Assembly: GCA_024278985.1 (NCBI GenBank)
Contig: JAJRSC010000030.1
Span: forward strand, 1 to 64,000
Length of the DNA: 64,000 nucleotides
Source: an archaeon
Lineage (GTDB): Archaea; AGJL01; Methanococci; Methanococcales; Methanocaldococcaceae
Reading direction: 5' to 3'
Positions 18,669 to 63,171 of this stretch are shown here, piece by piece. The notes under the pieces are model-generated. The model made no database searches. It was not told the DNA's origin and saw nothing but the letters and a program-made list of their open reading frames with translations. A program made the position numbers and the translations under genes. The stretch's first letter is position 1. Every line of letters begins with the position of its first letter.

Positions 18669-19472
18669 ATGTATATATTTAAAATAGCATATGATGGGAG
18701 ATACTCTTTTCAGCAGCAACCACATAAAGAAACTGTTTGTGATAAAATTTTAGAAGTTTTTTCTGATATATTAAAAGAAAGGAAGATTATTTATAGTGGT
18801 GGAAGGACTGATAAAGGAGTATCTGCCTTAGGGAATTTTGTAGTTCTAAATTTAAAAGAGGAGCCTAATATAAGATATCTAAATTATAAATTAAAAGATT
18901 ATGGAATATGGATTTTAGGTTTTAAAGAGATTGAAAACATTCCAGAGGTAAAATATAGACACTACAGGTATATCCTACCAAATATAAATTACAATGTAGA
19001 AAATATTAGATTAGCAGCTAAGAAGTTTATAGGTAAAAAGAGTTTTCATAATTTTTCAAAAAAAGATAGAACTAAAAATAAAAGCCCTATAAGAGAAATA
19101 TACAGTATTGATATTAAAGAAAATAGTTTCTTTTTGACAATTGATATTATTGGAAAAAGTTTTTTATGGCAAATGGTTAGGAAAATTGTAGGTGCTTTAC
19201 ATTTAGTTGGTAAGGAAATTAAAGAAGTTGAATGGATAGATAAATTATTTAAAACTAATTATAAAGAAGGAGCTCCAACTATGCCAGCAGAGGGGTTAAT
19301 ATTGGTTGAAGCAAAAACAGATATTCAATATAATTATGATAAATACATAATTAATAAATTTAAACATCACTGGGAAAAAGAGTTTTACTATAAAGTTATG
19401 AAAGTTGGAATTAGTAAAACAGTTTTAGAGTTGTGCCCCGGGGGAGCAGAGGAAACTCATCGCGCCGGATAG
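18669..19472 (+). CDS. truA: tRNA pseudouridine synthase A
   Basis: A 267-residue enzyme that makes pseudouridine at positions 38-40 of the tRNA anticodon arm. The catalytic Asp lies in SGGRTDKGVSALGNFV; LWQMVRKIVGALHLVG is the other conserved TruA motif. ATG 18669 follows GGTGGAAG; an upstream in-frame TTG (18657) is not needed. The final 13 residues are encoded inside a GC-rich segment that reads on the opposite strand as an H/ACA RNA, so the C-terminal tail is dictated by the RNA sequence. Confidence 0.88.
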   Translation: MYIFKIAYDGRYSFQQQPHKETVCDKILEVFSDILKERKIIYSGGRTDKGVSALGNFVVLNLKEEPNIRYLNYKLKDYGIWILGFKEIENIPEVKYRHYRYILPNINYNVENIRLAAKKFIGKKSFHNFSKKDRTKNKSPIREIYSIDIKENSFFLTIDIIGKSFLWQMVRKIVGALHLVGKEIKEVEWIDKLFKTNYKEGAPTMPAEGLILVEAKTDIQYNYDKYIINKFKHHWEKEFYYKVMKVGISKTVLELCPGGAEETHRAG

Positions 19473-19497
19473 CTCGTTCCCCTCGGTTACCCGGGGC
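19432..19497 (-). ncRNA. Predicted H/ACA guide RNA, antisense to truA 3' end
   Basis: This short GC-rich island in an AT-rich genome folds on the minus strand as a single-hairpin archaeal H/ACA RNA. Basal stem: 8 bp, 19490-19497 with 19435-19442. Pocket arms: TAACC (19489-19485) and TGCTCC (19448-19443). Upper stem: GAGGGGAAC (19484-19476) with GTTTCCTC (19456-19449), one bulge. Then a kink-turn: GA at 19475-19474 opposite GAT-GA at 19461-19457. ACA (19434-19432) directly follows the basal stem, exactly 14 nt from the pocket. The predicted target is GGAGC(A)UNGGUUA. A TATATAAA sequence lies upstream on the minus strand, near 19508-19515. Confidence 0.72.
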
Positions 19498-19554: not shown

Positions 19555-20202
19555 TTGCAGAGAGTTAGCCCTACAAGGATGGAACTCCTAAAATTAAAGA
19601 ATAAAATAAAATTAGCTGAAAAAGGACATAAATTATTAAAACAAAAAAGAGATGCTCTTATAATGGAATTCTTTCAAATAATTGACTTAGCAAGTGACTT
19701 AAGAGATAAAGTTGAGAAAAAGTTGGAAGAGGCATATAAAGATTTAATATTAGCAGAATTAACAATGGGTAGCTTAGTAGTTAAGGAGATTTCTTTAGCT
19801 GCTAAAAATGATAATTTAAAAGTGGATATGGATACTAAAAATATTATGGGTGTTACTGTTCCTACTTTTGAAATTTATAATGTTAAAAGAAAATTTGGGG
19901 AAAGGGGATACTCTCCTTATGGAGTTAATGCTAAAGTAGATGAAGCTGCTAAGAAGTTTGAGGAGGCTTTAGAATTAATAACAGAACTTGCTGAAATTGA
20001 AACTTCTATAAAGTTGTTAGCTGAGGAAATTATTAAAACTAAGAGAAGAGTAAATGCCTTAGAGTATGTTATAATCCCAAGATTAAAATCTCTTAAAAAA
20101 TATATATCTATGAGATTAGATGAAATGGAAAGAGAAAACTTCTTCAGATTAAAACTTATAAAATCAAGATTAGAGAAAAAAGAAGCAGGAGAAGAATTTT
20201 AA
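19555..20202 (+). CDS. atpD: A-type ATP synthase subunit D
   Basis: A 215-residue central-stalk subunit of the A1Ao ATP synthase, starting at TTG ([15 protein letters not shown]) after GGTGATATC. The [30 protein letters not shown] start and the long coiled-coil helices at both ends are typical. The other ATP synthase genes are not beside it; a detached atpD is, as I recall, also the arrangement in Methanocaldococcus. DUF22 follows after 12 nt. Confidence 0.92.
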
Positions 20203-62204: not shown

Positions 62205-63171
62205 GTTTTTTCTTCCACATTTTTGGATATAAATTTCTTTCCATTATAACTCTTTCAACATCTACTGCTATACCTTTATCATTTTCCAAAATTTCTTTTG
62301 TACTCATTAATGCCTTACCAATTGCAACAGCCTCTCCTTTTAAGGTTTCTACAACAACCAAATCATTTTTATTTATATCATTACTTAGCTTAGATATTCC
62401 CTTAACATAAACATCAGCTCCATGACAAATAGCATTAACTGCAGAATCTTTAACTACTATTTTTTTTAAATGTCTTAATCCATATTCTAAAGGCTTTATA
62501 ACTCTTCTAAGTTCCTCCTCATCATTATCTTCTTTCCAAAATATATATGCATCTAATAAATCCTGTAAATAAACAGCATCTTTTTCTGTAAAACATCCAC
62601 TTTTAATTCTTCTTAATTCTTGCATATGGGCGGATGTTCCTAAAGCCTCTCCTATATCTTCACATAATTTTCTTATATATGTCCCTGACTGACATCTAAC
62701 TTTAAATAAAACATCTTTTCCATCTTTTTCTAATAATTCAATATTGTGTATTTTTCTTATTCTCAATCTTTTTTTAACAGCAGATTTTAAAGGAGGTCTT
62801 TGATAAATTTTTCCTGTAAATTCCTTAAAGATTTTTTTTATATTCTCTTCATCAGTATCTCTATGTAAATGCATTAAACAAATATATTCCTTTGGAGGAA
62901 TATGCCAGGTTTGTATTGTTTTAGTAGCATTTTCTAAGGCAATTGGTAAAACTCCAGTAACTTTTGGGTCAAGTGTTCCACCATGTCCAGCTTTTTCTAA
63001 ATTTAATATTTTTTTTACCCAAGAACTAACTTCATGAGATGTTGGACCTCTTGGTTTATCTATAACTACTACACCATATTTAATATATTTATCAATTGGT
63101 CTCTCTTCTGGTTTGTATCCATAATTAGGATTAGTTTCAGCTTCTTCTTTTGTTATTAACAAAAATTTCAC
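62200..63171 (-). CDS. cbf5: tRNA/rRNA pseudouridine synthase Cbf5 (TruB family)
   Basis: A 323-residue enzyme, the catalytic core of archaeal H/ACA ribonucleoproteins. IDKPRGPTSHEVSSWVKKIL and AGHGGTLDPKVTGVLPIAL (catalytic Asp) form the TruB domain; the last 90 residues are the PUA domain (KKIVVKDSAVNAICHGADVYVKG) that recognises the ACA box. It begins with GTG (GTGA overlap with the small membrane gene upstream). It should act with the H/ACA RNA predicted at 19432-19497. Confidence 0.93.
   Translation of the reverse strand: MKFLLITKEEAETNPNYGYKPEERPIDKYIKYGVVVIDKPRGPTSHEVSSWVKKILNLEKAGHGGTLDPKVTGVLPIALENATKTIQTWHIPPKEYICLMHLHRDTDEENIKKIFKEFTGKIYQRPPLKSAVKKRLRIRKIHNIELLEKDGKDVLFKVRCQSGTYIRKLCEDIGEALGTSAHMQELRRIKSGCFTEKDAVYLQDLLDAYIFWKEDNDEEELRRVIKPLEYGLRHLKKIVVKDSAVNAICHGADVYVKGISKLSNDINKNDLVVVETLKGEAVAIGKALMSTKEILENDKGIAVDVERVIMERNLYPKMWKKKR

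Follow-up and report, generated by a model that had tools for sequence, protein, structure and literature searches.

A Pab160-family H/ACA guide RNA gene antisense to the end of truA in a Methanocaldococcus genome

Positions 19432–19497 of the minus strand of the window (the whole 64-kb stretch of archaeal DNA analysed) hold a 66-nt gene, ACA box included, which is a previously unannotated member of the Pab160/Pf9 family of H/ACA guide RNAs, a family that has already been described. We regard it as almost certain that the single-hairpin H/ACA sRNA known as Pab160/Pf9 has its Methanocaldococcus ortholog here, that this RNA acts from the minus strand as the guide for U898 of 16S rRNA, and that its overlap with the tRNA pseudouridine synthase gene truA is secondary. 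The RNA would be transcribed from the minus strand and would assemble with L7Ae, at its K-turn, and with Cbf5, Nop10 and Gar1. Its two arms would pair around GGAGCC-U-G-CGGUU in 16S rRNA, where Cbf5 would isomerise U898 to pseudouridine. What was computed is the family of the RNA, its structure and strand, its complementarity to the target, the gene order and the presence of cbf5 and nop10; transcription, RNP assembly and modification, as well as the deletion and translated extension proposed below for truA, are what we infer. The analysis places a guide RNA that lacked annotation in a known family and predicts one pseudouridine (U898) in Methanocaldococcus 16S rRNA.

A cmscan search of the 64-kb window against Rfam 15 returned RF02796 (Pab160 H/ACA RNA) as the sole match at curated thresholds, with the same coordinates and strand, a score of 52.0 bits (gathering cut-off 47.4; E = 5.3e-6) and an alignment spanning model positions 1–68 of 68. 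As this match lies above the curated cut-off, the RNA belongs to a described family and is not a novel guide. The site was also the only match on either strand of the 64 kb to a descriptor of the anatomy, which had no match in 20 shuffles and demanded an 8-bp lower stem, a 5' arm of 5–8 nt, a 7-bp upper stem, a GA/GA K-turn with a 3-nt bulge, and 14–15 nt to ANA. A sequence-only reading of this DNA had proposed a new H/ACA guide here and suggested an Rfam/Infernal search. Its coordinates, strand and anatomy prove correct by both the Rfam match and the descriptor, but the RNA is not new, and the M. jannaschii control genome also has a Pab160 RNA. Pf9 is the P. furiosus ortholog of P. abyssi Pab160 (PMC4652768). 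Weak matches to snR99 and HgcG, far under their gathering scores, reflect the common H/ACA shape and were rejected.

The anatomy of the RNA is supported by the descriptor and by an alignment, A1, of 24 sequences comprising the window copy, 11 same-genus copies and 12 from Thermococcaceae. On the minus strand the order is GCCCCGGG UAACCG A GGGGAAC GA GC UAUCCGGC GC GAU GA GUUUCCU C UGCUCC CCCGGGGC ACA. The lower stem of 8 bp pairs GCCCCGGG (19490–19497) with CCCGGGGC (19435–19442), both strands being supported in A1 and by the descriptor. The two guide arms, placed by the target scan and the descriptor, are UAACCG on the 5' side (19484–19489), of which AACCG pairs with CGGUU of 16S rRNA, and UGCUCC on the 3' side (19443–19448), of which GCUCC pairs with GGAGC. 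The upper stem joins GGGGAAC (19476–19482) to GUUUCCU (19450–19456, from A1 and the descriptor); covariation is seen in five of its seven pairs, which are accompanied by two GA layers and one A-C layer, the mismatched tenth layer formed by A19483 opposite C19449, in line with the roughly ten layers expected of an archaeal H/ACA sRNA. The K-turn and apical loop (19457–19475, from invariant columns in A1 and the descriptor) comprise GA at 19474–19475, a GC/GC closure of 19472–19473 with 19462–19463, the loop UAUCCGGC, the 3-nt bulge GAU (19459–19461) and GA at 19457–19458; this GA/GA K-turn is a candidate L7Ae site. The ACA box (19432–19434) is invariant in the 24 aligned sequences and lies exactly 14 nt (UGCUCC plus CCCGGGGC) from the upper stem, the archaeal H/ACA rule being a distance of 14–15 nt from upper stem to ACA (ANA) (PMC4652768). 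Lower stem, pocket arms, upper stem, K-turn, ACA and 14-nt rule had all been read from the letters, and all were found. At 68% GC against 27% for the window, the gene is also the GC-richest 66-nt stretch there. Compared with Pab160/Pf9 of Pyrococcus and Thermococcus, structure, length, K-turn, ACA, the AACCG and GCUCC arms and the predicted 16S target are alike, whereas the Thermococcales RNAs have a 9-bp lower stem with a 5-nt 3' arm rather than 8 bp with 6 nt, and a 5' arm of AAACCG rather than UAACCG. A pocket-adjacent G-U wobble of the upper stem (A1 columns 17 and 55) is invariant in all 23 distinct Methanocaldococcus and Thermococcaceae sequences.

Under the H/ACA structure 97.0% of cells in A1 are paired, double-sided changes occupy 21 cells against a shuffle mean of 4.9, and covariation stands at 0.216 compared with 0.097 for shuffled alignments and at most 0.096 for slid structures. 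The GAGC and GC...UGA columns of the K-turn are invariant in the 24 sequences. Read on the minus strand, the paired cells include 36 G-U and 0 A-C. Since those 36 cells would become C-A mismatches on the plus strand, the functional strand is, on this comparative evidence, the minus strand; compensatory changes in relatives had been named beforehand as what might betray a plus-strand fold, and they favour the minus strand. The folding energy of the single sequence is weak evidence on either strand (z = -2.1 for the minus strand and -1.75 for the plus strand). It is extremely unlikely that the plus strand is the functional one, with the GC-rich hairpin and the T-rich DNA after it serving to end the truA transcript. 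Such a role would fit the folding of the plus strand as well (-31.9 kcal/mol), its one terminator-like site (19481–19496) and the TTTTT that directly follows the RNA gene on that strand in some relatives. However, the T-run is missing in several relatives, only the minus strand has the G-U pairs and the K-turn, and the invariance of arms, K-turn and ACA exceeds what a terminator needs. As a primary function a plus-strand element is rejected on the G-U/A-C asymmetry, although the hairpin may also help to end the truA transcript as a side effect beside the guide RNA.

The RNA most likely directs pseudouridine formation at U898 of 16S rRNA, to judge from its complementarity. The genome's own 16S (locus L013) has the target segment GGUGGAGCCUGCGGUUUAAUU with the core site GGAGCCUGCGGUUU, in which the arms flank GGAGCC-U-G-CGGUU and the target uridine is U898. 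When all uridines of this 16S and of two complete congeneric 23S rRNAs were scanned with the arms UAACCG and UGCUCC, U898 had a stacking score of -19.9 and the next best site -16.5; the U898 score was reached by 6 of 300 shuffled rRNA sets with the window arms and, when the arms of relatives were used, by 1 of 300. The n-1 base of the target (C) is mispaired with a guide U, and the window 5' arm is one pair short of those of relatives, with 5+5 pairs instead of 6+5. We take U898 to be E. coli position 950, from aligning GGAGCAUGUGGUUU, the E. coli sequence, with GGAGCCUGCGGUUU. A 16S target near E. coli 950 had already been suggested by the sequence-only reading, and it exists in the genome's own 16S as GGAGCCUGCGGUUU, with U898 as the best-scoring site. 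Pab160, which together with its target was reportedly first described by Muller et al. in 2008, is presumably the guide for P. abyssi S922, given the pairing computed here. S922 was among the P. abyssi positions tested as H/ACA targets (PMC4652768), and the offset given by m1Psi938 = G966 (PMC7005279) places it at E. coli 950, so that U898, E. coli 950 and P. abyssi S922 would be one site.

The 52-bit RF02796 score is among the lowest in the genus, one arm pair is lost and the truA stop codon falls inside the RNA gene. It could be argued that the gene is a decaying, non-functional copy, a pseudogene betrayed by its changed 5' arm and by truA reading through into it. We consider this very improbable, as the changed upper stem retains all seven pairs, neither the K-turn nor ACA is damaged, no uridine outranks U898 as a target, and this is the only copy in its own assembly, though that assembly, a draft of 30 contigs that is 86% complete, may lack a second one. 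Cbf5, the catalytic subunit that would use the guide, is encoded at 62212–63159 on the minus strand of the same 64-kb window, approximately 43 kb from the RNA gene, and Nop10 is encoded in the genome. The AT-rich stretch upstream of the RNA gene yielded no convincing promoter; sigma-70 promoter matches were dismissed as irrelevant in archaea.

With the Rfam model, Pab160 RNA was found in 12 of the 14 genus genomes (11 of 13 besides the window genome), and Thermococcaceae hold 13 loci. At E values up to 10 the model found none in G008 (L075) and G013 (L074), which form one Methanocaldococcus subclade, nor in any of the 22 Methanococcaceae genomes searched. An arm-pattern search for diverged copies in G008, G013 and the Methanococcaceae gave only its two positive controls as plausible hairpins. 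The order-level search covered 36 genomes, and a phylum-level search gave the same 36. Pab160 is apparently absent from these 22 Methanococcaceae genomes and from this Methanocaldococcus subclade, even though its 16S target is strongly conserved across archaea.

The gene facing the RNA is truA (18669–19472, plus strand), encoding tRNA pseudouridine(38-40) synthase (TIGR00071, 189.7 bits against a cut-off of 142.85) with the RTDKGVSA motif present. Its stop codon, TAG at 19470–19472, lies inside the RNA gene, and its last 41 nt (19432–19472) overlap. Beyond the 5' end of the RNA gene lies the divergent atpD, for V/A-type ATP synthase subunit D (19555–20202, plus strand; TIGR00309, PF01813), where other Methanocaldococcus genomes checked have a MarC operon or an AAA ATPase gene. 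The convergent arrangement with truA recurs in 10 of the 14 genus genomes. The nine others with this adjacency carry the same RNA just past the truA stop, with 1, 1, 2, 6, 6, 6, 17, 20 and 23 nt between stop and ACA end; the window genome alone has a truA that extends 41 nt into the RNA. Comparison with G002 (AAAACAGTTTTAGATTATACGCCATAACTGTGCCCC against AAAACAGTTTTAGAGTTGTGCCCC) fits an in-frame loss of approximately 12 nt that removed the stop. Starting from the tail-to-tail genes of the genus, loss of these nucleotides in the window lineage would have taken the old truA stop with it, so that the frame would extend to the next in-frame stop, the TAG within the complement of the RNA gene. The overlap thus seems to have arisen by chance through a small deletion, and the added C-terminal residues would be whatever the complement of an RNA under constraint encodes, here a predicted ...LELCPGGAEETHRAG. 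The earlier suggestion that the overlap dictates the TruA C-terminus agrees with the position of the truA stop inside the RNA gene. This lineage-private overlap is a small but clear case of a structured RNA on the opposite strand dictating a coding end, and one in which gene callers would give the extended TruA and miss the RNA gene. Approximately 25% of C/D box sRNA genes overlap ORF 3' ends and carry the neighbour's stop codon (PMC7994747). In those archaeal cases the stop belongs to an upstream gene, apparently on the same strand, whereas the window RNA is of the H/ACA type and antisense to truA.

A pseudouridine guide over a pseudouridine synthase gene had been called striking, with the question of whether relatives keep the position. 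That truA and the RNA are convergent neighbours in 10 of 14 genomes gives this some substance. On the other side, two relatives carry the RNA at another locus, two more gave no match, the flanks retrieved around the Thermococcales Pab160 copies showed no truA, and the overlap is private to the window genome. From gene order, the truA adjacency is a conserved yet dispensable neighbourhood in the genus, and the overlap belongs to one lineage. A functional link between the RNA and TruA is unlikely, given that the RNA is at another locus in two relatives, missing in two and without truA beside it in Thermococcales. One form of such a link would make the convergent layout itself regulatory, either with the RNA acting as antisense to the 3' end of truA mRNA or with collision or processing at the shared end coupling TruA, a guide-independent enzyme, to the H/ACA pathway. 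The recurrent adjacency speaks for it, as do the 41 nt over which the RNA in the window is perfectly complementary to the coding strand of truA. We nevertheless hold it to be very unlikely, because in the nine genomes that share the adjacency a gap of 1–23 nt separates the RNA from the truA coding region, and because an RNA folded this tightly and enclosed in its RNP is unlikely to pair with truA mRNA. That the antisense overlap became functional in the window lineage alone, the RNA or its transcription tuning TruA through the 41 shared complementary nt, is highly unlikely; if true, it would link guide-dependent rRNA with guide-independent tRNA pseudouridylation. The two relatives with the RNA at another locus, G003 and G012, are the closest to the window genome in the TruA tree (support 100/98), and in them it lies beside ftsZ/cbiJ and cobN. 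In the same tree, from which most of the C-terminal extension was removed beforehand, the window TruA has the longest branch of the genus, with 0.48 changes per column against 0.24–0.25 in these two sisters.
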